A stretch of DNA of 64,000 bases, taken from NCBI GenBank assembly GCA_945829235.1, contig CALZUA010000002.1, positions 122,650 through 186,649 on the forward strand, in the 5' to 3' direction. This document shows, piece by piece, positions 4,503-54,503 of the stretch (position 1 is the first letter of the stretch; every line of letters begins with the position of its first letter). Under the pieces are notes generated by a model. It saw nothing but the letters and a program-made list of their open reading frames with translations. It did not search any database and had not been told where the DNA came from. This DNA is from an uncultured Clostridia bacterium. Lineage in GTDB: Bacteria; Bacillota; Clostridia; Oscillospirales; Ruminococcaceae. The position numbers and the translations under genes are program-made.

Positions 4503-5531
4503 TCACAGCAAATCAATTTCCTTTTTCAGCTCCGACAAGAGCATTTCTTCGGGGACTTTTCGCAGAATTTCTCCCTTTTTAAAAATCAGCCCTTCCCTGT
4601 CGCCGCCGGCAATTCCGATATCAGCCTCGCGCGCTTCGCCGGGACCGTTTACCACGCAACCCATTACAGCAACCTTAATCGGTTTTTTCACATCGGCAAG
4701 CAACTTTTCAACCTCGTTTGCAAGAGAAATAAGGTTGATTTTTGTTCTGCCGCAGGTCGGACAGGAAACTATTTCTGCGCCCTCATACAACCCGCAGGCT
4801 TTCAGGATATCCTTTGCCGCGTACACCTCTTTAATCGGTTCAGCAGTGAGCGAAACGCGGATTGTCGAGCCTATTCCGTCGCATAACAACGAGCCTATTC
4901 CAACGGCTGATTTTACGATGCCCATACGCTCTGTTCCCGCTTCGGTAACGCCGAGATGAAGCGGATACTCCGTCTTTTGCGCAAGCAACCGATACGCCTC
5001 AATCATCAGCTTGACATTCGAGGATTTTATGCTGATTACAATATCATCAAAGTCAAATTTATTTAGCAACCTTGCGTGCCCGAGTGCGCTTTCAACCAGC
5101 GCTTCAGGAGTTGGACTGCCGTATTTTTCGAGGAGATTTTTCTCAAGCGAACCCGAATTAACTCCAATTCTAATCGGGATATTTTTCGCCCTGCAAGCGT
5201 CCGCAACAGCCTTTACGCCGTCTGCTGAGCCGATGTTTCCGGGATTCAGACGGATTTTGTCAACACCGCGTTCAATGCAAGCAAGCGCGATTTTATAATC
5301 GAAATGAATATCCGCGACAATCGGCACGTTCACAGCATTTCTCAGTGCTTCGATAAGAGCCGCGTTCTCGATTTTCGGAACAGCCGCGCGGATTATCTCG
5401 CAACCCGCTTTTTCCAGCTCAACCGCTTGTTTCACGCTGTTTTCGATGTCATCTGCGGGAACGTTCAGCATTGATTGAATATAGATTTTCTCGCTGCCGA
5501 GAACGCAGTTTCCAACTCTAACCTTTTTCAA
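4503..5531 (-). CDS. ispG: 4-hydroxy-3-methylbut-2-en-1-yl diphosphate synthase (GcpE)
   Basis: Penultimate step of the MEP isoprenoid pathway: reductive conversion of MEcPP to HMBPP with a 4Fe-4S cluster. 342 aa, the short bacterial form with a TIM barrel and a C-terminal cluster domain. The cluster cysteines are visible in CPTCGRT and GCVVNGPGEA; the N-terminus has the typical QSMLNVPADD stretch. It lies five bases after rseP and its stop codon is 11 bases before the polC start. With dxr and uppS it makes this operon the isoprenoid/lipid-carrier cluster. Confidence 0.96.
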   Translation of the reverse strand: MKKVRVGNCVLGSEKIYIQSMLNVPADDIENSVKQAVELEKAGCEIIRAAVPKIENAALIEALRNAVNVPIVADIHFDYKIALACIERGVDKIRLNPGNIGSADGVKAVADACRAKNIPIRIGVNSGSLEKNLLEKYGSPTPEALVESALGHARLLNKFDFDDIVISIKSSNVKLMIEAYRLLAQKTEYPLHLGVTEAGTERMGIVKSAVGIGSLLCDGIGSTIRVSLTAEPIKEVYAAKDILKACGLYEGAEIVSCPTCGRTKINLISLANEVEKLLADVKKPIKVAVMGCVVNGPGEAREADIGIAGGDREGLIFKKGEILRKVPEEMLLSELKKEIDLL

Positions 5532-5536
5532 TCAAA

Positions 5537-6709
5537 TCACCTCGAAACAAGCTTAGTTATATCGTTGAACGTAATCAAAATCATCAAAAGAAGCAACAGC
5601 GCCATTCCCACAAAGTGAATCATGCCCTCAACCTGCGGTTTAACGGGCTTTCTGCGGATAAGCTCGATAATCAGGAAAATCAGCCGCGCGCCGTCAAGAC
5701 CGGGTATTGGGAGAAGGTTGAAAATGCCGACGTTGATGGACAACAGCGCCATAATGCTCATAAAATCGGAGAACGTGTAGGTTTTCACAGCTTCGGTTAT
5801 TACAGAGCCAACGCCGATAGGTCCGGAGAGGTCGTTCAAGCCGTACTTGCCTTTTATCAGGTCAACAACCGTGAGCAAAATCACGCGTGCTGTCGAACAG
5901 CTTTCACGAAAAGCCTCGGTTACCACATTCCCAAAATTCTTCTCCAGCCGATAAACAAGAAAATCAAAGTAAACACCGCTTGAACCGTTTTCCCGCGGAA
6001 TTGTCATAAACTCAACATCTTTCAATGTCACGGTCTCGCCGTTTCTTTTAACGGTAATGTCGTAAACAAGATTTCCGGCTTCGTTTTTGCGGTCGCTTGA
6101 CTGTAATTTGTAGGTTATATCGGAAGCCGAGAGAATCGGAAGTCCCTCTACGCTCAGGATTTTATCGTTCACCATAAGTTGAGAGCTACTCACGCTTTGA
6201 TCTCTGAACTCGCATATTGTTGTAGAGGCAATCGCATTTGATGTGCAAAGCGAAATCAAAACCACTATATACCCCAAAATCAAATTCATCAGAGGACCGC
6301 AGAAAAGCACAATCATTCTCTGCCAGACGGGTTTTCTGTTGAACGCACGGGGATTTGGCTCAATCGCCTCGCTGGTTTCCTCATCAAACTCCTCGATATC
6401 CGTTTCAAATGCGCAAAATCCGCCCACGGGAAACGCGCGGACAACATACTCGGTTTCCTTACCCTTTTTCTTGAAAAGCGCAGGTCCCATTCCGAATGCA
6501 AATTGTTTTACATAGATACCGCAAGCCTTTGCCGCCAAAAAATGTCCCAGCTCGTGTACAAGTATGATGAACAAAAACACCAAAATCGCAACAAAGACAG
6601 GTATTATGTTCATAAAAACATCGTGTGCGAAAAAATTCAGCAAGACTAAAGTTCCCGCGATGACAAACAAGACTGCAAGTGCAATTATCCGTTTTAAAGC
6701 CGTTGACAT
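5537..6709 (-). CDS. rseP: Site-2 intramembrane metalloprotease RseP/RasP
   Basis: Membrane-embedded zinc protease (M50) that cuts anti-sigma factors and signal peptides within the bilayer. 390 aa. TM1 at about 35-57 carries HELGH (52-56), the zinc and catalytic motif; a PDZ domain spans roughly 190-270; the second motif NLLPIPGLDG is near 335, followed by hydrophobic helices. GGAGG lies just before the ATG. It sits between dxr and ispG, the usual Firmicute order. As the window holds two ECF sigma/membrane-partner modules, it is a natural candidate for site-2 cleavage of such partners, but that link is inference. Confidence 0.95.
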   Translation of the reverse strand: MSTALKRIIALAVLFVIAGTLVLLNFFAHDVFMNIIPVFVAILVFLFIILVHELGHFLAAKACGIYVKQFAFGMGPALFKKKGKETEYVVRAFPVGGFCAFETDIEEFDEETSEAIEPNPRAFNRKPVWQRMIVLFCGPLMNLILGYIVVLISLCTSNAIASTTICEFRDQSVSSSQLMVNDKILSVEGLPILSASDITYKLQSSDRKNEAGNLVYDITVKRNGETVTLKDVEFMTIPRENGSSGVYFDFLVYRLEKNFGNVVTEAFRESCSTARVILLTVVDLIKGKYGLNDLSGPIGVGSVITEAVKTYTFSDFMSIMALLSINVGIFNLLPIPGLDGARLIFLIIELIRRKPVKPQVEGMIHFVGMALLLLLMILITFNDITKLVSR

Positions 6710-44059: not shown

Positions 44060-44848
44060 ATGTTTGACGCGGACAAATGGGAACTTGTGTGGACGCACCG
44101 GCAGACGTTCATCGATGGCACGCTCTCAACGCTTTTAATGGCGCTGTTCGGACTGCTGATTGCGCTGGTTCTCGGGGTTATTTTCGGGTTGATGTCAACA
44201 AGCCGTTCGAGATTGCCGCGGGTTATCGCAAGAATTTACGTTGAATTTATCCAGAATACACCGCTTATGCTGCAAGCGCTGTTTTTGTTTTACGCGGTTG
44301 TGTTCTCGGGAATTGAGGGATTTTCGGCACTGCTCTGCGGTATAATCGCGCTCGGTATCTATCACGGTGCTTACATCTCCGAGGTTATCCGCGCGGGAAT
44401 TACCGCTGTTCCCAAAGGACAGCTTGAGGCGGCTTACTCGCAGGGATTTACGCACATTGCGGCAATGTTCTACATCGTTCTCCCGCAGACAATTAAGATT
44501 ATTCTCCCGCCGATGGTGAACCAAGTTGTGAACCTCATCAAAAACACGTCTTGTATGTTCCTCGCGGGCGGCGCGGTTGACCTGATTTCCCGCACAAACG
44601 CTTTTGCGGTCGGCGAAGGCACCGGCTCTGCCGCAGGTCAGGGCTACATAATCGGCGGCGTGATTTTCTTCATCATCTGTTTCCCGCTGTCAATGCTCGC
44701 TTCGCACTGGGAGAAAAAGCTCAAGATGCGCGATGTGGCTACGGTTAAGGTTCGCAAAAAGCCCGATGATATTTCGGACGCAGAGCTGGATATGATTATC
44801 GAGAACAAAGGAGGCGAAAACAATGGACGCGTTGACGGGCAGTCTTAA
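44060..44848 (+). CDS. Amino acid ABC transporter permease
   Basis: 262 aa, HisMQ/GlnP type. Membrane helices with the conserved FIQNTPLMLQALFLFY and the EAA loop EVIRAGITAVPKGQLEAAYSQGFT (about 108-135), followed by IVLPQTIKIILPPMVNQ. GGGAG precedes the ATG. It overlaps the second permease gene by 26 bases, so the two subunits are made together, probably as a heterodimer. Confidence 0.94.
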   Translation: MFDADKWELVWTHRQTFIDGTLSTLLMALFGLLIALVLGVIFGLMSTSRSRLPRVIARIYVEFIQNTPLMLQALFLFYAVVFSGIEGFSALLCGIIALGIYHGAYISEVIRAGITAVPKGQLEAAYSQGFTHIAAMFYIVLPQTIKIILPPMVNQVVNLIKNTSCMFLAGGAVDLISRTNAFAVGEGTGSAAGQGYIIGGVIFFIICFPLSMLASHWEKKLKMRDVATVKVRKKPDDISDAELDMIIENKGGENNGRVDGQS

Positions 44849-45602
44849 AATGATAACCAACGGGAGTGTACTTTTGTACATTCTCAAAGGACTTGGCTTT
44901 ACAATCGGAATTGCTTTTTTCGCGGTTGTTCTCGGCATAATTATCGGCACAATCCTTGCTCTTGTGCGGAATTACTGCAACAAGGGTGCGGCGAAAATTT
45001 TCAAGTACATCTCAATCGCGTACATCGAAGTTTTTCGCAACACTCCGCTTATGCTGTGGATTTTTATCGGACTAGTGTTCTTCCCTTCAATCGAGTTCCC
45101 GACCGAATTTACCAAGCTGTTTGAGCTGTCGAGAACCGAAATGGCAGTGCTGTTCAAGGCGATTATCGCGCTTGTTCTTTTCACCTCGTCCGTTATCGCG
45201 GAAATTGTTCGCGGCGGGTTGAACTCAATCTCCAAAGGTCAATTTGAGGCGGCGTATTCGCAGGGCTTCAATCTCCCGCAAACCTTGCTTTTCATCATCA
45301 TTCCGCAGACGTTCAAAAACATCGTCCCCACGCTGTTGAGCCAAGTCATTACAACAGTTAAGGACACCTCTTACATCGCGAACATCGCCGTTGCTGAGCT
45401 TATGGGCAGAACGTTCCAGCTTATCCAGATTTCGCCGCGCTACACGGGCTTTTCCACGCAGAATGTGTCCGATGTTTTCGTGCTTTGCGGGCTTGCGTGC
45501 GTGATGTATTTCGCGGTCAATTTCACCATTTCCTGCGTTGTTCGTCATATGCAGAAGCCAAAGAAAGTTAAAGTTGCCGTAAAGCTTGAGGAGTCGAAAT
45601 GA
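44823..45602 (+). CDS. Amino acid ABC transporter permease (second subunit)
   Basis: 259 aa paralog of the preceding permease: VFRNTPLMLWIFIGL and the EAA loop EIVRGGLNSISKGQFEAAYSQGFN (about 122-147), then IIPQTFKNIVPTLLSQ. GGAGG precedes the ATG inside the previous gene. It overlaps the next gene by four bases (ATGA). Confidence 0.94.
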   Translation: MDALTGSLKMITNGSVLLYILKGLGFTIGIAFFAVVLGIIIGTILALVRNYCNKGAAKIFKYISIAYIEVFRNTPLMLWIFIGLVFFPSIEFPTEFTKLFELSRTEMAVLFKAIIALVLFTSSVIAEIVRGGLNSISKGQFEAAYSQGFNLPQTLLFIIIPQTFKNIVPTLLSQVITTVKDTSYIANIAVAELMGRTFQLIQISPRYTGFSTQNVSDVFVLCGLACVMYFAVNFTISCVVRHMQKPKKVKVAVKLEESK

Positions 45603-46528: not shown

Positions 46529-46543
46529 TTAAAAGATTCCGCC

Positions 46544-46586
46544 AAAGCCCGAAATGACCGTTTAATCGGTTGTTTCGGGCTTTTTT
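46544..46586 (+). terminator. Intrinsic terminator of the amino acid ABC operon
   Basis: Long hairpin: AAAGCCCGAAA/TTTCGGGCTTT outer stem (11 bp) with an inner ACCG/CGGT stem, followed by six T. It separates convergent operons. Confidence 0.9.
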
Positions 46587-46689
46587 GCGTCAGGCGAGAT
46601 TTGCCTTGGAGAAAGCTTCTGCCCTATTCGGCTTGATGAACGGTCACTTTGTTGTATCGGTTTTCTTCGCATCAAGAGCCGCTTTCAAA

Positions 46690-48714
46690 TCAACGCTCTG
46701 TTCTTGCTCCGCTATAACTCAAATCCACCGTCTTACACGAAAAATCCGTATTTCGCACGACTAATATACCATTATCGGTTATTGCAAATCGGCTGAACAA
46801 AGCATCATATACCGGCTCATCACTGCCAAGACGATAAATCGCATTGTCCTTGCTGTAAAAAATATCCGAGCCGTTTGAGCATAACTGAACGGCAGAAATA
46901 TCCGAGAGCTTATTTGTGAAAAAATCATCGGGAGATAGCTCATAGATACCGTTCTTATCCGAAAACAGAACTCTTGTTCCATCAAAGTAAAGTGTTCTCA
47001 CAAACTCGCCCGGCAATCGTGAAATTTCTCCCGTTTTCATATCGTACCGTTTTAACTGTAACAGGTTGTTTATATAAAATATGGTTTTTCCGTCACAGCA
47101 TAGTGCCAGATTATACGCGCCCTCGTCAATAATGCAAGCGCCGTCCTCCAGAACACAGTTGTTAAACACATAGTACATTGAGTTGTTTGCAGTGAAAAAG
47201 CCTGTTAAACAAAAGGACGAATTGGAATTATCTCTCTGCGGTGAGAGATTTATTCCCAAAAATCCCGATTCGTCGTTTTCCTTGGTCGTATAGTAAGGCA
47301 TATTCGTGTAGTTGGAAGCGGATATGCTGTTCACCGAAAAACTTTGCAGATAAAGCAGATTATCACCTATGTTATAAAGCGAAGTAATTCTGTCATTATT
47401 CTTGACAAGCTCGTGGATTACCGATAATTCATCATCACTGTTTTTGAAATGCCGCGTAATACTATTCGTATCGTTAGTGTAGAAGCTGTCCTTATCTTCA
47501 ACAAAAAATGCGTTCTCGGAAAGATTATACTTAATGACATTCTTTCTTTCAAACCGATTTGAACAGCCCGACATCAGAACGCATACAGAAATCACAGATA
47601 CCACCGACATCAAGCGGAGCTTTTTCCTTGTTCCGCCCAAGTAATAATTATTCGCTATAACGCCTGCCGCACAGATAAACAAAACTGTCAGGATAATCAA
47701 AACAAACAAATGAGCAAGCGGTATTTCGGAAAACAGCTTTATCTGTTCTCCGTTATCATTCTCCGAAATCACATCTCCGCGTAAATATCCGACAGCGCGT
47801 AAAAATCCCGTTGGAAGATAATACGCGGGAGTTGCGGGGGTAAAAGCAAACTGCTGAAGAACGCAAAACGCACTCGGAATAAACACCGTAAACAGTGCCT
47901 TGCGAAGTGTTACCGAAAGCAGAATTACAAGAGCCGCAACAAAAAAATATCCGACTGTTCGCAATAAAGATATTATTAAAAATCCTTGTAAAATCGAAAT
48001 ATCGTAGGGGCAATTCTGATAGAACTCTATGGATTGAATAGGATAAGACAACTCGGTGAAACTCCCCTGCGAAATCAATGTTAAAAGCTCTGCTGCCATT
48101 CTCGCCGCTTGACAGGACAGAACAAACACAATCAGCGCGGTTGTTTTTCCAAAAAGCGTTTTGTTTCTACCGTTTTCGCATATTCTGATAAATGTGATAA
48201 CATTTGATGTTTCCTCGTTCAAGAACAGCAAAGCCGTCAGGAAAATCACTGCCGCAAGGAGCGGAATATCGGGAAAATCCTGTCCTAAAGCCGAATAATC
48301 GCTAACCGTCAAATAACGTGTGGTGGGAGATTTTTCCGCGTAATAGTATTGCTCCATAACAAGGTCAAGAGCTTCTTTACGGTCGGTTATTTCGCGCACT
48401 CTTTCATACTCCGACAGAAATTCGCTCTCGCTGTCATACTCACCGTTCAGAAGCTTCTTCTCGATACTGCTTTTAATATTCAGCGCGTCAACGATATTCT
48501 CTTGTTCTGCAAGAATAGCAGACTTTTTATCCTCGGTAAGTTTCCCCGAAAATTCCTCCATATAACTGAAAAAAATCTGTTCATTTTTGCTTGTGGTAAA
48601 ATCTCGCTTTTGGTATGAAAAATTCAGAATGACAATTTCCACAGCGATTATCACACCGGTCAAAATCAAGCCGAAATGCTTTATGTACAACTTTTTTAGT
48701 TCTTCCTTAAACAT
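46690..48714 (-). CDS. ABC-2 type permease fused to a lipoprotein-like repeat domain
   Basis: 674 aa. Residues 1-362: an exporter permease with TM1 (about 14-34), a long outer loop (35-148) and a group of helices (about 150-355). Residues 363-384 read like a complete lipoprotein signal, RKKLRLMSVVSV then CVLMSGC (Cys 384). Residues 385-674 look like a beta-propeller of DUF5050 type (repeats such as DGKTIFYINNLLQLKRYD, GTRVLFSDKNGIYEL, GSDIFYSKDNAIYRL). It is probably one polypeptide with the repeat domain outside, but an internal start at 47610 could give a separate lipoprotein. AAGGAG precedes 48714. Last gene of the second ECF operon. Confidence 0.65.
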   Translation of the reverse strand: MFKEELKKLYIKHFGLILTGVIIAVEIVILNFSYQKRDFTTSKNEQIFFSYMEEFSGKLTEDKKSAILAEQENIVDALNIKSSIEKKLLNGEYDSESEFLSEYERVREITDRKEALDLVMEQYYYAEKSPTTRYLTVSDYSALGQDFPDIPLLAAVIFLTALLFLNEETSNVITFIRICENGRNKTLFGKTTALIVFVLSCQAARMAAELLTLISQGSFTELSYPIQSIEFYQNCPYDISILQGFLIISLLRTVGYFFVAALVILLSVTLRKALFTVFIPSAFCVLQQFAFTPATPAYYLPTGFLRAVGYLRGDVISENDNGEQIKLFSEIPLAHLFVLIILTVLFICAAGVIANNYYLGGTRKKLRLMSVVSVISVCVLMSGCSNRFERKNVIKYNLSENAFFVEDKDSFYTNDTNSITRHFKNSDDELSVIHELVKNNDRITSLYNIGDNLLYLQSFSVNSISASNYTNMPYYTTKENDESGFLGINLSPQRDNSNSSFCLTGFFTANNSMYYVFNNCVLEDGACIIDEGAYNLALCCDGKTIFYINNLLQLKRYDMKTGEISRLPGEFVRTLYFDGTRVLFSDKNGIYELSPDDFFTNKLSDISAVQLCSNGSDIFYSKDNAIYRLGSDEPVYDALFSRFAITDNGILVVRNTDFSCKTVDLSYSGARTER

Positions 48715-48718
48715 AAAA

Positions 48719-49876
48719 TCATCTCCTTGATTTTTGCCCGATAAATGTATTTGCCGCACATAATACGGCACATTCAACCACCGAGAGTATTATTGCCGCC
48801 CACAACGTAAGTACGGGTTGCCCGAAGATATTCACAACAGAAAATTCTTCAGCCAATTCCGTTGGTACGATAATGTTAAACGGATTAAGTATGCTTTTTG
48901 AAACTGCCGTGAGGATTATCAGAACAAGTGCGAACCCAAAGCTCAAAACAATAGATATAATGGTGTTTGGGGAGATTTTTGAGGCAAAAAGTATCGTCAG
49001 AGCAACAACGAAAAGCGCAAAAAATTTCACCGCTATCCACAGCAAAATTGTTTCTGAAAAGCTGAACGAAAAAGGAGTATTCTGAAACATTTTCGCAGAA
49101 TACAGCGGCATATCAAGTCCGTCAACACCAAGTGTGATGTTTGCAGCAGCAAGGTCAGCCGCGGTAAAATATACGCTCAAAAACAAGCAATACACAGCCG
49201 CAGACGCAATTTTCGCAAGCGTTGTTGATTTTGATTTTCCGGAAGAACCGATGATTTGGAGCATACCGCTTTCACGCTCGTTTGTAAAGCTGTTTGCCAA
49301 TCCTAAAATCAGCATTATTATACATAGCAGGGAAGAAAAATCGTGATTAAAGAAAAGGTTCGTCCAATGGGTTGCTCTGTATTCGGGGATTTGACGGTTT
49401 TGATACATTTTGTAAGCCATAGCGTATTTCTCGGCTTCGTAGTCATTTCCAACGCTTTTGTAGAAATGAAAACATTCTGCGGCGTTGGCGGCGATTTTGT
49501 CGGAAATATTCGGATAAGTTGCACAGTAAGATATTTCGGGAGCAATATCAACATTATAGAGGTTGAAATCTCCGAAAATATAACCCGTGTAATACAGGTC
49601 GGGACGGTATTCCGAACTGAAAACCATATCCGAAACCTCATTGTTAAGCCAATTTGCGCGCTCTCTGAACGGAGCGATTTTTTCCTCCGAAATTTCGCCG
49701 CAAACCGTGTTGTAGAGCGCAAAATATGCTTCGCCGCGTTTGCCGTAGGTCTTGTTATAATATGTGCCGCAAGTGCCGTCGGCTTGTATGAAATTGAGAA
49801 CAGTCAGAATTACAAGTATAATAAGTGTTGAAATTTTAAACCAGCTTTTCCGCATTTCATAGTAAACAATCTTCAT
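48719..49876 (-). CDS. ABC-2 type exporter permease
   Basis: 385 aa. TM1 near residues 13-32, a 140-residue outer loop, then five to six helices from about 170. LGLANSFTNERESGMLQIIGSSGKSK (about 190-215) is the cytoplasmic coupling loop typical of ABC-2 permeases (the E-R-E-x-G pattern). It overlaps the ATPase stop (GTGATG) and is four bases ahead of the fused permease. Its substrate is unknown; relatives export peptides or confer antibiotic-peptide immunity. Confidence 0.8.
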   Translation of the reverse strand: MKIVYYEMRKSWFKISTLIILVILTVLNFIQADGTCGTYYNKTYGKRGEAYFALYNTVCGEISEEKIAPFRERANWLNNEVSDMVFSSEYRPDLYYTGYIFGDFNLYNVDIAPEISYCATYPNISDKIAANAAECFHFYKSVGNDYEAEKYAMAYKMYQNRQIPEYRATHWTNLFFNHDFSSLLCIIMLILGLANSFTNERESGMLQIIGSSGKSKSTTLAKIASAAVYCLFLSVYFTAADLAAANITLGVDGLDMPLYSAKMFQNTPFSFSFSETILLWIAVKFFALFVVALTILFASKISPNTIISIVLSFGFALVLIILTAVSKSILNPFNIIVPTELAEEFSVVNIFGQPVLTLWAAIILSVVECAVLCAANTFIGQKSRR

Positions 49877-50727
49877 CACAATTCTCCAAAGCTATAAAGG
49901 CAAACGTCCTCTAAATCGGGAGCAATATTCTTCGCATTTGCGGAGGGTTTATCATCGCAAACTGCGCGAATTTTGCATTGCTCACCCATTGAAACAACAT
50001 TTGAAACGCGCAGTTTGCTCATTATTTCAAGCACATCGTGACTGTCGCAGACGAACTCCCAGACTTTGCCGTCAATCTTTTCCGTAATTTCCCGCTGTGT
50101 GCCAAAATCCACCATAACACCATCGTTCAGCAGAATAATTTCGTTTGCTATGTACTCAATATCCGAAACAATGTGAGTTGCAAGAATGACAATTCTGTCA
50201 CTGCCGAGCGAGGAAATTATATTGCGGAAACGCACACGCTCTTTCGGGTCAAGTCCTGCTGTCGGCTCGTCAAAAATCAGTACACTCGGCTCTCCGATGA
50301 GTGCTTGTGCAATACCCAATCGTTGTTTCATACCGCCCGAAAACGTTCCAATGCGCTTTTTTCCCACATCTCCCAAATTCACCAATTCAAGTAAATCGGA
50401 AATATATTTTGACGTGTTTTCGGGTTTATAATTCTTTAACGCGAGCATATATCGCAAAAATTCGGGCGCGGAATAATTCTTGTAATAGCTTTGATATTGC
50501 GGCAGATAGCCAAGCTTGTTGTGGAGCTTGTTTCCGTCCTCGTCTGTGAATAAAACGCTCCCGCAGTCAGCTTTTACAAGTCCCGTGATAGTGCCGATAA
50601 GCGTGGATTTTCCCGCACCGTTCGGACCGAGCAAGCCGTAAACTCCGGCTTTGAAATCGAGTGAAAAATTGCTTAACGCCCGCTTTTTACCATAGGTTTT
50701 GGTGACATTTCTGATTGACAGTTCCAT
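49876..50727 (-). CDS. ABC transporter ATP-binding protein (ABC-2 exporter type)
   Basis: 283 aa. Walker A LLGPNGAGKSTLIGTI (near 33), signature FSGGMKQRLGIAQALIG (near 130), Walker B LIFDEPTAGLDPKER, H-loop ILATHIVSD. The sequence style resembles CcmA/BcrA/LanF exporters. Its ATG overlaps the lipoprotein stop and its own stop overlaps the next permease, so ATPase and permease are coupled. Confidence 0.93.
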   Translation of the reverse strand: MELSIRNVTKTYGKKRALSNFSLDFKAGVYGLLGPNGAGKSTLIGTITGLVKADCGSVLFTDEDGNKLHNKLGYLPQYQSYYKNYSAPEFLRYMLALKNYKPENTSKYISDLLELVNLGDVGKKRIGTFSGGMKQRLGIAQALIGEPSVLIFDEPTAGLDPKERVRFRNIISSLGSDRIVILATHIVSDIEYIANEIILLNDGVMVDFGTQREITEKIDGKVWEFVCDSHDVLEIMSKLRVSNVVSMGEQCKIRAVCDDKPSANAKNIAPDLEDVCLYSFGEL

Positions 50728-52685
50728 TAGTCAAGCTCCCAACACTTCATTGTTTTTCCGTTGCTTTCAATTACATCAGCGTAAAGCATACTGTCTGTAT
50801 GGACGATGTTTTCGGCACTGTTGCCTGTGCCAACAGAAATTTCGCGAATTTTAGCGCCGTTCTTGTATTGCTTGATAACTCCGTAATTGTCGCCAATAAC
50901 GGTAAAGAACTCATTCTCTCCCGTCAAAAACACATCTTGACTTTCAAGAATATTTTCGGTTGTAAAATTCTGAAAAGAGCCGTTTGTGTACATTACAAAA
51001 TTACCGCTCGGCATAACTCCGTTTACAACATCAGTATGCCTATCTCCCCAAACAGCCGTTTTACCGCAGACCTGCGAATAATTTATTCCGTCTTTCCTGT
51101 ATATCTCATAATTACCCGAAAAATCGCAAACTCCGTAAAAATCAGCGTCCTTATTGTTGATTTCAGCCTGCGCGTTAAATGCGACAAACCCATCGCCGAG
51201 CTTTATATCAACAAAATACTCAGCCCCTTGGGAAGCGCTTGATAACGAAAATAAAGTTCTATGATTTTCCCAATTCCAATCGCAGGAACATATCTCGTTA
51301 TCATTTCTGACGTAAACAATTCTGTCCTCGTTAAAGTCGATTTTTCCGTAACTACCGGTTATGTCAAGCGATTTAACCACATTCAAATCCTTATCAAGAA
51401 GCATGATTTTCATAGCATTTGTGCCGGTGGAAAATGTATCACCGCTGTACTTAACAACAGAAATTTTATCCCCGTGCATTCTTGCACCGCTGACATCTGC
51501 AAGTGTCTTCACCATATCGCCGCTTGAATTAACCATGCATAATGCGGGATAAACGGCACTCCCGCGTTTGGTTTCGGCATAAAGATTATCTCCTATCGCA
51601 AACATAGGCTTAAGGTCTGTGTTGCTTACAACATCACCTCCGTCACTGATGTTTTCTGCACTTTCGGCGGGTGTGCTTGTGCTGTAAGAGCCGCTTGATT
51701 TATCACCTATCACCATTTTGGAAGTGCTTTTCATAGCCACTTCTCCCTCGGTAAGCGGTGCGGCAATACAATAAACAAAATCCCCCACCTTGATATTTTC
51801 AAGAGTAATTTCGGTTTTGGAAATTTTCCCGCCCTCCATTGTGACATCAATAAAATCGTAAATACCGTTTATCTTAACAGGCTTATGATTGACAAAAACC
51901 GTTACGCGATAAGGTTGAACATTCGGCATTGTGCTATAAGCGCAGAGTGTTGACGTAAGACAGTTTTCGCCGCTTTTCAGTGTGAATGTTTTTTCCAATC
52001 TCTTAAATTGCTGTAAATCACATTCAACCGTATATCCCGACTCGTACTCATCGAGTCCGTATTCTTCCTTTTCCTCATTTGTAAGAACACGATTTTCCGC
52101 TTTTAGCACCTTGTATTCATCGGTTGCGGCAATGCCTGTAATTTCATCGGAGAGTTTCTTGGACTTGTTGCGGAGTATCCTGTGATAGTTTCCAAAAGTT
52201 GGAGTTTCAAGCGGGGGAACAAAGTCGGGAGCAAGTATCGTTGATACGGAAATGATATGCTCTGACATATCATTGTCAATAATAGGGTCAACAGTCAGCT
52301 CGTGCGCTTTCTCCGAGTTTTCTTCGATATCAAAACTGCTTATATAGGAGTATTCCGGTGAGTTTTCCGAGCAATATTTCTGCGGAATACCGTCAATAAA
52401 AACCATAAATCCAACTCTTGTTGGAGTGTCGCCGCCCATCAGCGTAGGAGAAAGAACCAATTCTCCGCTCCCATAATCTATATCCTTTGTTCCAAAATTG
52501 AATCCATAGCTTGTTGCAGGCGGTATTTCGTGAGATGAGTCTGTCGGCTGTTTCATCGGGTCGGAAATTTCCGAGCTAATGTTTGATGTTGTTATGCTCG
52601 GAATGCTGTCCGGTTCGGCTTTTGAGCAACCCGAAACAAGAATCGCGGTACTTAAAAGTACTACCGATATTCTTTTGAATTTCAT
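50727..52685 (-). CDS. Lipoprotein with a C-terminal propeller-like repeat domain
   Basis: 652 aa. Lipoprotein signal with LVSGC (Cys near 20), a Ser/Thr/Pro linker, then an N-terminal globular part (about 60-315) and, after a second Ser-rich linker, a C-terminal part (about 345-650) with repeated hydrophobic strands of the type IGDNLYAETKRGS, NEDRIVYVRNDNEICSCD, DGFVAFNAQ, suggesting a beta-propeller. It resembles the outer domain of the permease fusion in the same operon. It may be a sensor or substrate receptor. The start at 52685 is chosen by the signal peptide; the ribosome site is weak. Confidence 0.6.
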   Translation of the reverse strand: MKFKRISVVLLSTAILVSGCSKAEPDSIPSITTSNISSEISDPMKQPTDSSHEIPPATSYGFNFGTKDIDYGSGELVLSPTLMGGDTPTRVGFMVFIDGIPQKYCSENSPEYSYISSFDIEENSEKAHELTVDPIIDNDMSEHIISVSTILAPDFVPPLETPTFGNYHRILRNKSKKLSDEITGIAATDEYKVLKAENRVLTNEEKEEYGLDEYESGYTVECDLQQFKRLEKTFTLKSGENCLTSTLCAYSTMPNVQPYRVTVFVNHKPVKINGIYDFIDVTMEGGKISKTEITLENIKVGDFVYCIAAPLTEGEVAMKSTSKMVIGDKSSGSYSTSTPAESAENISDGGDVVSNTDLKPMFAIGDNLYAETKRGSAVYPALCMVNSSGDMVKTLADVSGARMHGDKISVVKYSGDTFSTGTNAMKIMLLDKDLNVVKSLDITGSYGKIDFNEDRIVYVRNDNEICSCDWNWENHRTLFSLSSASQGAEYFVDIKLGDGFVAFNAQAEINNKDADFYGVCDFSGNYEIYRKDGINYSQVCGKTAVWGDRHTDVVNGVMPSGNFVMYTNGSFQNFTTENILESQDVFLTGENEFFTVIGDNYGVIKQYKNGAKIREISVGTGNSAENIVHTDSMLYADVIESNGKTMKCWELD

Positions 52686-52695
52686 TTTAATGATC

Positions 52696-53424
52696 TCACT
52701 CTCTGATATCTGTGCCATGTGTAAATGGTGTGATTGTCTTATCGCTGTAATCGACAGTAATATTGATTGTAGTAACCTGCATTAAATAATCGCTGTCCGA
52801 ATTATTATCATTTGTATCCGTGCGCTTGCTGAACAATGGATTTGTTTTAAATCCACTGCCGAAGCTTGGCAGACATAGCTCGTTCAGACAATTTTCTGTT
52901 ATTGCTGTCGAATACTCAACCAAAAAATTGACCTTGACAGTAAGTTCCTGCTTTAAGAGAACGGGATTGCCGTCAACTACCAGAAATATAGATTTTGCGC
53001 TTGTTATCTCCGCGTTTTCGCCAAATTTATCGCCTATTTCGTAACGCTTTATTTTTTTTGAATTATCCTCGTAACCATAAGCAGCATTTACGGAAATTTC
53101 CCCCGAGAAGTTATCGCTCAAATTGAGCTGATACTCGTCATTAACAGGGGATACTAATCCGCTTGAATTGGCGTTCAGACTAACCCCCGAGTTGTCCGAA
53201 CTGCTTTCAAGCCTTATCTTTCCACCGCCTAAAATCACCGCAAAAACTCCGAATATTGCCGCTGTGCAGGTAGCCACCGCTATAATATTCTTCCAAGCGG
53301 ATTTGCGATGAGCTTTTTTATTATCTCTTTGCTGATTACGGTATTTTTCCAAATCCTTGCCTGCGTTGTCGATAAATTTCTCGTCAATGCCGTTCCACAT
53401 TTGCCAAAAATCCTCGCTCCTCAA
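52696..53424 (-). CDS. Single-pass membrane protein, putative anti-sigma partner
   Basis: 242 aa. A cytoplasmic N-terminus of about 45 residues (EDFWQMWNGIDEKFIDNAG, then a basic stretch), one membrane helix (about 46-66, IIAVATCTAAIFGVFAVILGG) and a 175-residue outer domain. It overlaps the sigma-factor stop (TTGA), starts at TTG with AGAGGTG, and has the layout of a membrane anti-sigma factor. No zinc motif. Not closely similar to the 581-aa partner in the other module except for this layout. Confidence 0.6.
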   Translation of the reverse strand: MRSEDFWQMWNGIDEKFIDNAGKDLEKYRNQQRDNKKAHRKSAWKNIIAVATCTAAIFGVFAVILGGGKIRLESSSDNSGVSLNANSSGLVSPVNDEYQLNLSDNFSGEISVNAAYGYEDNSKKIKRYEIGDKFGENAEITSAKSIFLVVDGNPVLLKQELTVKVNFLVEYSTAITENCLNELCLPSFGSGFKTNPLFSKRTDTNDNNSDSDYLMQVTTINITVDYSDKTITPFTHGTDIRE

Positions 53425-53978
53425 CTCAGCACACCTCTTTTCCGCAAATAATCCAAAAGTTTCTTGCGCTCCCGCTTGATGATATTATAGACGTTTGCCT
53501 CGGTCAAGCCCGTTACAGCCGCAATCTCCGAAACCTCACAACAGTACCAATATCTCAAAACAAGCACCTTTCGTTTTCGTCCGGTCAAACGCTTTAGGAA
53601 ACCGCTTATTTCGGCAATGATTTCGTGTTGTTCTGCAACTGCTTCCACGGAATAATCCGAGGAAAATTCAGCCAGCTCGTCCATTATCAGTTTAATTTCA
53701 TTGCCGCCGCGCTTTTTGGCAGTATCGCTTTTTATCCTGTTAATCGCATTGTTTCTTGCGATTTTTCCCACATAAGTACGAAGGTTTTCGGGTTTGTTAG
53801 GAGGAATGGAATTCCAGACGTCCAACAATGTATCATTGATGCACTCTTCGGCGTCAAAGGTGTTTCCGATAACATTTTTGGCAATAATCTCGCAGTACCG
53901 CCCGTATTTTTGGGAAACTGCCGATATTGCTTCTTCATTCCGTTCAAAAAAGAGCTGTATGATTTTTTTGTCCTCCAC
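53421..53978 (-). CDS. ECF-type RNA polymerase sigma factor
   Basis: 185 aa. Sigma2 (LFFERNEEAISAVSQKYG, AEECINDTLLDVWNSIPP, KIARNNAINRIKSD) and sigma4 (CEVSEIAAVTGLTEANVYNIIKRERKKLL). Paralog of the factor at 19112. GTG start behind AGGGGG. First gene of the six-gene operon with the ABC exporter, so it probably controls that operon in response to a signal seen by the partner or lipoproteins; this is inference. Confidence 0.92.
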   Translation of the reverse strand: MEDKKIIQLFFERNEEAISAVSQKYGRYCEIIAKNVIGNTFDAEECINDTLLDVWNSIPPNKPENLRTYVGKIARNNAINRIKSDTAKKRGGNEIKLIMDELAEFSSDYSVEAVAEQHEIIAEISGFLKRLTGRKRKVLVLRYWYCCEVSEIAAVTGLTEANVYNIIKRERKKLLDYLRKRGVLS

Positions 53979-54077
53979 TTTTTCGCCCCCTTTTCCCCTC
54001 TATATAAAAAGACAAAATTTATTTCATGGTTCGGTCACAATTTATCAAATTTTTTTAAATTCTTTACATATATGTTA

Positions 54078-54106
54078 ATTGTAAATATAAAGTTTGAAAA
54101 AGTCAA
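54078..54106 (-). promoter_or_regulatory. Promoter of the second ECF operon
   Basis: TTGACT (54106-54101), 17 bases, TACAAT (54083-54078), about 100 bases before the sigma-factor start. Closer in, GAACC followed about 15 bases later by TTGTCT could be a second, ECF-type self-regulated promoter. Confidence 0.6.
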
Positions 54107-54196
54107 TAACATTTTCAGCAAATGTTAGAGTAGCTCATTGAGCAGTTGGTTTTTTACTTTGGAGATATTTTCGCTATTCACAAGCCTTTATGAAAC

Positions 54197-54330
54197 ACAC
54201 AAAAATAAAAGCGGAGAACTTTTACATTCTCCGCTTTGCGATATATTCGGTTGTATCAGATATCTGCGGCGGTTATCACACTGTCCGCTATCATCAGCCG
54301 TTCCCGCTTCTATAATACAACTTTAGCGGC
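54197..54330 (-). ncRNA. Candidate structured RNA between tandem terminators
   Basis: On the minus strand GTTGTAT (54321-54315) can pair with ATACAAC (54256-54250), enclosing GCGG/CCGC pairs, and is followed by the strong terminator at 54208-54237. No gene fits this segment. It could also be remnant sequence. Confidence 0.25.
54208..54237 (-). terminator. Intrinsic terminator, distal to aspS
   Basis: Eleven-base stem AAAGCGGAGAA/TTCTCCGCTTT with an eight-base loop, then TTTTATTTTTG on the minus strand. Confidence 0.85.
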
Positions 54331-54369
54331 ATTTTTAAGGATAACACGAATATCTCTCGTCAATCAAAA

Positions 54370-54400
54370 AAAGGACACCTTTCATAGAAAAGCGTCCTTT
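54370..54400 (-). terminator. Intrinsic terminator of aspS
   Basis: AAAGGAC/GTCCTTT outer stem with an inner CTTT/AAAG pairing, followed by a T-run on the minus strand, about 100 bases past the aspS stop. Confidence 0.75.
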
Positions 54401-54503
54401 AATCGTTGTTCGGGTATGGTCTGAAATTTTTGCGGCACTACAATTCCTTTTGTAATGCGGGTTTGCGTCTATATTCCTTGTTAAAATCGAGCGGGAATTT
54501 TGT

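Follow-up and report, generated by a model that had tools for sequence, protein, structure and literature searches.

An internal lipobox in a fused permease

The 64 kb stretch of an uncultured Ruminococcaceae genome analyzed here (the window) carries on its minus strand, from 46690 to 53978, an operon of six genes, all in one direction, whose last product joins an ATP-binding cassette (ABC) transporter permease to a predicted beta-propeller. Between the two halves, after six membrane helices, lies a segment resembling a type II signal peptide with an invariant lipobox cysteine. Judged by sequence pattern, these proteins probably form a family of ABC transporter polyproteins, in which Lgt and LspA would act on a mid-chain type II signal peptide and yield a six-helix permease and a lipid-anchored propeller in fixed ratio. 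The internal lipobox is the most novel and most testable part of the system. If it is processed as proposed, a lipoprotein signal works after six membrane helices, and such signals need not be N-terminal.

The fused protein has 674 amino acids (aa) from an ATG at 48714 (46690 to 48714); its open reading frame (ORF) is open from 48777. The permease half (residues 1-360; 47635 to 48714) shows six membrane helices, with a helical domain between helices 1 and 2, in both the AlphaFold model and the hydropathy plot. Helix 6 is followed by basic residues with a mean net charge of +4.0; next comes a hydrophobic core, whose hydropathy averages 2.0, and then usually the motif L/F/I/M-S-G-C. In the window protein the signal-peptide-like segment covers residues 362-384 (47563 to 47631) and its lipobox reads M-S-G-C, with the Cys384 codon at 47563 to 47565. 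The fused propeller follows at residues ~394-664 (46723 to 47535). It is thus preceded by the basic region, hydrophobic core and cysteine-bearing lipobox of a lipoprotein, but the cysteine is residue 384 and stands behind six helices rather than near an N terminus. An earlier note on this DNA recognized the permease-lipoprotein fusion correctly and missed the invariant lipobox within it.

In an alignment of 76 homologues, Cys384 is present in all 76, Gly383 in 75 and Ser382 in 68. Elsewhere in residues 359-396 most columns are variable (entropies 1.4-3.6 bits). The standard lipobox expression fits 72 of the 76. At the level of individual loci, a lipobox was found at all 26 fusion junctions, the window's included, and at all three from outside the class; several junctions form near-identical pairs, so the number of independent junctions is smaller. 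For L110, L147 and L148 the junction cysteine was assigned by reading the sequences. Left out of the count were chains of two fused permeases without a propeller, identified by reading their sequences (L146, L100|3, L149, L159 and L162) or by length and match only (L110|1, L150, L160 and L161), together with L031, which ends inside the permease.

A strict junction pattern, with limits set after the fusions had been seen, passes 28 of 29 fusion rows; among the other ORFs with a length of 250 aa or more, 6 of 347 pass. The 29 rows are 26 distinct fusions and three duplicates (L029, L030 and L163 of L091, L092 and L096) that are absent from the 26-junction count; the 347 ORFs include duplicates and mechanical ORFs. 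The six passes outside the fusions lie at residues 68-109, near ORF starts, and two of them are the same gene. Most simply, they are N-terminal lipoboxes whose ORFs were given start codons too far upstream.

By topology, helix 6 ends in the cytoplasm if the N terminus does, and the next segment has to carry the propeller outside, much as a signal peptide would. The sequence pattern suggests that one ORF gives both a permease and a lipoprotein through processing by Lgt and LspA. Three observations weigh against this. Four of the 76 homologues miss the lipobox expression at position -3 or -2, with Gly-Cys kept; the strict pattern fails L105; and an in-frame ATG with a Shine-Dalgarno-like stretch precedes the window lipobox, from which internal initiation could make a free lipoprotein. 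In the window this ATG lies 15 codons before the cysteine with an AGGA stretch upstream, and an in-frame ATG, GTG or TTG occurs somewhere in the stretch at 21 of the 26 junctions, so the fusion might be read from two starts, the first yielding the permease and the second a free lipoprotein. At the other five, none of these three codons occurs between 36 and 10 residues ahead of the cysteine, so internal translation starts cannot be general. Only eight of the 26, the window among them, combine a start with a Shine-Dalgarno-like string, even by a loose pattern, and we consider dual initiation very unlikely.

The segment could also stay uncut, as a seventh membrane helix that tethers the propeller, the cysteine being kept for another reason. 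An N-terminal position belongs to the usual definition of lipoprotein signals, and residues 362-391 have low confidence in the model. Against a permanent helix stand the cysteine, glycine and serine, which are conspicuous in an otherwise variable stretch behind basic residues and a short hydrophobic core, and the recurrence of the same pattern in distant fusions; we regard such a tether as unlikely. Substrate-binding protein-permease fusions such as OpuA and GlnPQ also join an outer domain to a transporter. These are importers, and we know of no internal lipobox in them. Among the titles and abstract beginnings searched, no description of the operon or of an internal lipobox was found; coverage was partial, which makes this weak evidence of absence.

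Organization of the operon

From first to last, the genes are separated by an overlap of 4, a gap of 10, an overlap of 1, an overlap of 4 and a gap of 4 bases. The earlier note, which described six co-directional genes no more than 10 bases apart, was right about the operon, its spacing and the kinds of its genes: sigma factor, membrane partner, lipoprotein, ATPase, permease and permease-lipoprotein fusion. It had extended the region to 54106, where the DNA (54106 to 54078) is a noncoding, sigma70-like promoter; coding begins at 53978 with the first gene.

That gene (53421 to 53978) encodes an extracytoplasmic function (ECF) sigma factor of 185 aa with sigma regions 2 and 4, matched above cut-off by Pfam PF04542 (36.4 bits) and PF08281 (39.1 bits) and also by NCBIfam TIGR02937 (75.9 bits). 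The gene overlapping it by 4 bp (52696 to 53424) encodes a putative anti-sigma factor of 242 aa, in which ~46 residues precede a single hydrophobic segment, read as one membrane helix (47-65), with the extracytoplasmic part after it. A factor with both sigma regions adjoining a single-pass membrane protein is the arrangement expected of an ECF factor with a membrane anti-sigma factor. The lipoprotein (652 aa from its own ATG; 50727 to 52685; ORF open from 52718) has an N-terminal lipobox with Cys20, which is invariant in two alignments (21 of 21 and 30 of 30 sequences). The ABC ATPase (283 aa; 49876 to 50727) matches PF00005 with 97.6 bits and has canonical Walker A, Q-loop glutamine, signature, Walker B and H-loop motifs. 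Permease 1 (386 aa; 48719 to 49879), recognized by hydropathy, has a large loop after its first helix and is weakly similar to the permease half of the fusion. Note that both permeases are placed in the ABC-2 class by topology and model, with no Pfam match.

No Pfam family reached its cut-off for the partner, lipoprotein, permease 1 or fusion, nor did any NCBIfam model for the partner, and four of the six proteins are without a named family in Pfam or NCBIfam. Rfam matched no RNA element between 46400 and 54700. A defense system was considered and rejected: PADLOC matched only the ATPase, apart from one weak match for the sigma factor.

Outer domains

Both outer domains are predicted to be beta-propellers, by model and by structural fold match, in agreement with what the earlier note had guessed. 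In the lipoprotein, a beta-rich N-terminal domain (residues ~60-327; 51705 to 52508) precedes the propeller (residues ~345-652; 50730 to 51653). The AlphaFold model of this protein, built from 30 sequences, has a mean predicted local distance difference test score (pLDDT) of 79.4 and a predicted template modeling score (pTM) of 0.50. That of the fusion, built from 76 sequences, has a mean pLDDT of 78.3 and a pTM of 0.57, and shows the six helices, the propeller and the low-confidence stretch between them. At such pTM values the arrangement of the domains in the models is not trustworthy. Because propellers took up the fold lists, these searches say little about the fold of the permease half or of the lipoprotein N-terminal domain.

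Sequence comparison added little. When used to search for solved relatives, the fusion profile A3 yielded three matches, all weak (E 0.076 to 0.41). When the fusion and lipoprotein profiles were compared, no common domain emerged; the sole shared segment was 30 columns long, with a probability of 8.7%. The solved propeller 3s25 (EUBREC_1955) is presumably a member of DUF5050 (PF16472), a family recorded for 5 of 92 fusion homologues. The window propeller differs from DUF5050 proteins in sitting behind a permease, and the window fusion has no Pfam match to PF16472 at E up to 1.

Distribution of the core

The lipoprotein, ABC ATPase, ABC-2-like permease and permease-propeller fusion form a core that recurs across families and beyond the class. 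The distinct permease-propeller fusions read comprise 29 loci, 26 plus the three from outside the class. Nineteen of these, including all three of the latter, have the order lipoprotein-ATPase-permease-fusion; L147 and L148 are counted here with the lipoprotein judged by its lipobox only. The gene order is different at L092, L100, L103, L110 and one cassette of L098. The second L098 cassette begins at the edge of its stretch, L093 and L094 are cut by contig ends, and at L151 and L152 the ORF picker called no ATPase or first permease. At L188 and L189 one additional gene of ~390 aa stands before the ATPase. The lipoprotein is a single gene in some lineages and two genes (N-terminal domain; propeller) in others, the N-terminal domain being made as a separate lipoprotein of ~331-358 aa in L101, L104-L107 and L188-L190.

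With the fusion alignment as query, some match was obtained in 18 of 43 same-genus genomes, and a match with E < 1e-70 in seven of the 43, the window's own included (in G009 at a contig end). Across the order, 31 of 394 sampled genomes, own genome included, have matches at E 1e-10 or better. Across the phylum, a cut-off of 1e-15 leaves four of 398, of which one is the window's genome and the other three come from outside the class. Many weaker matches cover the permease only. For 9 of 36 lipoprotein matches, the longest contig is exactly as long as that of a fusion match, which suggests shared contigs. A scan of public genome contigs gave three loci only. A recent, accidental origin of the fusion was considered and rejected, since most of the 92 homologues are nearly full-length and the fusion also occurs in distant genera.

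Further relatives (L153, L154, L157, L158, L164 and L165) have separate lipoproteins and unfused permeases; L155 to L157 were seen in part. We also observed related modules in which two permeases are apparently fused into one chain of ~660-800 aa (L149, L150, L159, L160, L161 and L162). Separate lipoproteins were seen in all of these except L161, and by inspection L162 has a response-regulator/kinase-like pair.

Regulators and promoter

The earlier note had taken all six genes together as one system. The four transporter genes are widely found together, whereas the ECF pair is not part of the core, and exchange of regulators among loci rules out six co-inherited genes. A regulator was recognized at 14 of the 29 loci, using single-sequence searches, which can miss others; at the remaining 15 none was recognized or the contig ended. 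The ECF pair stands before the core only in the window and at L091 in G027, in the latter case by a part of the partner gene that directly adjoins the lipoprotein gene and is cut by the contig end. An OmpR-type response regulator and kinase accompany seven loci (L101, L104-L107, L188 and L189) and a kinase alone L109. Four loci have a LytTR-type regulator with a GHKL kinase, on the same strand at L097 and divergent at L096, L098 and L103. Pfam was run on samples of these regulators. Separately, an ECF-like gene (32 bits) was seen downstream of the cassette at L102. Among 28 partner matches, the longest contig exactly equals that of a lipoprotein match in four (404551, 10011, 19415 and 97523) and that of a fusion match in two (10011 and 12328).

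With the same outer domains standing beside three kinds of regulator, the propellers are unlikely to exist for sigma release, contrary to the proposal that they sense a ligand and thereby free the sigma factor.

Upstream of the ECF gene lies an ECF-type promoter-like motif, GTGACCGAA-N-(C/T)GTC (54011 to 54038, minus strand), common to two homologous ECF upstream regions. With a spacing of N14 or 15 it occurs upstream of the window ECF gene, of a paralogue on contig C35 of the same genome and of a homologue in G018. In the whole 3.2 Mb genome the pattern occurs twice, both times at the ECF genes from which it was derived, with no third site; the reversed control gave 0. Regulation of the operon by its own sigma factor, as previously suggested, stands as a hint, since the motif was found only before the window ECF gene and its genomic paralogue. 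This distribution fits autoregulation with a very small regulon; it counts against that reading that the pattern was drawn from the two regions where it was found. The sigma70-type site mentioned above (54078 to 54106, minus strand) reads TTGACT-17-TACAAT with 10 of 12 matches, and is weak: the region holds 21 such sites, compared with 17.4 in shuffles.

ECF/anti-sigma pairs of this kind also occur elsewhere, as a homologous pair in G018 and as the paralogous pair at C35:3748-9694 (L143), which has the same promoter-like motif. At the C35 locus a second ECF gene lies just upstream of the pair, and the lipoprotein and membrane protein that follow it match nothing in the operon, nor any NCBIfam model above cut-off. 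The whole genome has 34 sigma-70 region 2 matches, which seems many.

Proposed function

The description of the operon as exporter-type is supported by the data. Peptide export is the most likely function, with about an even chance of being correct. By analogy, and with moderate confidence, the operon may be an inducible Cpr/LanFEG-like exporter against envelope-active peptides that was acquired horizontally and is autoregulated. Inducible ABC exporters are one way in which bacteria survive each other's peptides, and two-component regulators of the kinds seen at other loci often drive them.

In such a system, an envelope-active compound, most likely an antimicrobial peptide, would disturb the cell surface, and the anti-sigma factor would release the ECF factor. 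Starting at the GTGACCGAA/(C/T)GTC promoter, the freed factor would then drive transcription of the operon that encodes it. The pump would remove the compound from the membrane, with two lipid-anchored propellers on the outer face capturing it or presenting it to the permease pair. Permease 2 would carry the second propeller as its C-terminal half. With the permease part ending in the cytoplasm, the hydrophobic segment after it would work like a type II signal peptide inside the chain; Lgt followed by LspA would lipidate the chain and probably cut it before Cys384, giving equal amounts of permease and lipoprotein from one ORF.

CprABC and LanFEG systems, taken together with their lipoproteins (NisI; the CD1348 neighbor), have in common with the operon one ATPase, two different ABC-2 permeases, a nearby lipoprotein and a private inducible regulator. 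PMC5786555 describes this plan as one ATPase, two ABC-2 permeases encoded together, a lipoprotein and an inducible regulator, and gives 214-252 aa for full-size transmembrane domains of the known permeases, with split parts in one system. The window permeases are larger than that account allows (386 and ~360 aa, with a large loop after helix 1), although six helices each do fit. In place of an adjoining two-component system, which is present at other loci, the window has the ECF pair, and it adds propeller outer domains and a permease-lipoprotein fusion. A further difference, which speaks against the kinship, concerns the ATPase: LanF proteins have an E-loop in place of the Q-loop, whereas the Q-loop glutamine was present in all 30 ATPases read. 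Differing in size, regulator, outer domains and Q-loop, the operon is not filed as a Cpr/LanFEG member. BceAB likewise combines an ABC exporter, an outer domain and a dedicated regulator. According to PMC5786555, however, BceB is one ten-helix permease with its outer domain between helices VII and VIII, while the window has two six-helix permeases and a propeller at the C terminus.

ABC ATPases are poor guides to substrate. The NCBIfam models scoring best against the window ATPase are GldA (179.3 bits), DrrA (171.1 bits) and, third, the lantibiotic-protection model TIGR03740 (163.8 bits against a cut-off of 309.75), and all are below cut-off. The higher GldA and DrrA scores, together with ABCA lipid exporters as the best solved-structure matches (ABCA1, ABCA3, ABCA4 and ABCA7, 161-148 bits; NosF also listed, 110 bits), weigh against a confident assignment to peptides. 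They would suit an exporter of membrane lipids or a cell-envelope polymer of the ABCA/Nos/Gld kind, induced by envelope stress, with the propellers as extracytoplasmic chaperones. The curated-model scores behind it are all under their cut-offs, and by inspection no synthesis genes are evident inside the DNA inserted with the operon (see below); we hold this reading doubtful.

A further point against peptide defense comes from G066, G422 and G150, where small secreted proteins are encoded beside the cassette; they could mean export of a product the cell makes. The pump would then belong to a module for secreting a bacteriocin or small protein, in which the lipoproteins act as chaperones or in immunity. 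In L092 and L097, mutually homologous proteins of this sort (140-146 aa) are encoded directly upstream of the lipoprotein genes, and the sole new strong match, in G150, is close to a cassette. GHKL/LytTR regulators, as found at L096-L098 and L103, are a type often used in peptide signaling. The window's genome, however, has no match to the small proteins, and strong matches are limited to one of the 43 same-genus and two of the 394 order genomes, three of the four being the search seeds. Secretion of a self-made product thus seems improbable to us, and defense against envelope-active peptides is preferred. The small protein genes (L092:3652-4071 and 5437-5859; L097:2740-3177; G150:C1:536280-536711) have no Pfam or NCBIfam family above cut-off; their products are candidates for substrate or toxin.

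Insertion into the window's lineage

The earlier note judged the genes AT-richer than their neighbors and consistent with transfer, and both points are borne out. The operon lies in an inserted segment of ~7,950 bp (46535 to 54484) between a dehydrogenase gene and aspS, delimited by BLASTN of the empty sites in G018 and G031 against the window. Its GC content is 41.3%, below every one of 403 overlapping windows of equal length elsewhere in the 64 kb (minimum 45.5%). GC at third codon positions is 0.42-0.48 in the six genes versus 0.55-0.64 in three neighboring genes.

All 43 same-genus genomes matched an aspS query, several only through a paralogue at ~40% identity or through contig pieces. 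For the flanking dehydrogenase, G031 and G018 are the only genomes besides the window's own with a match of at least 91% identity. In these two relatives the dehydrogenase and aspS (96-97% identity) adjoin, spaced by 42 and 48 bases, with a terminator-like inverted repeat, noted by eye, between them. BLASTN places the window's extra DNA from ~46535 to 54484, with 88-89% identity to G018 and G031 on either side. The right arm of the repeat is kept from 54485; the left arm, past the end of the BLASTN match, is degenerate by eye, and the insertion apparently splits the repeat. Insertion into the window's lineage is the simplest reading, and the empty sites support recent transfer. A less likely history is that both relatives lost the segment and were left with a whole repeat. 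No transposase or integrase was recognized on inspection of the ORF list, and no target duplication was seen at the insertion. The same module is a recent insertion in one lineage, is met with three kinds of regulator, and is largely made of proteins without a named family.

Two terminator-like hairpins (54208 to 54237 and 54370 to 54400, minus strand) lie within the insertion upstream of the operon and are perhaps remnants of the donor context. Near the insertion, at 44060 to 45602 on the plus strand, two adjoining ORFs resemble amino-acid ABC permeases by inspection.

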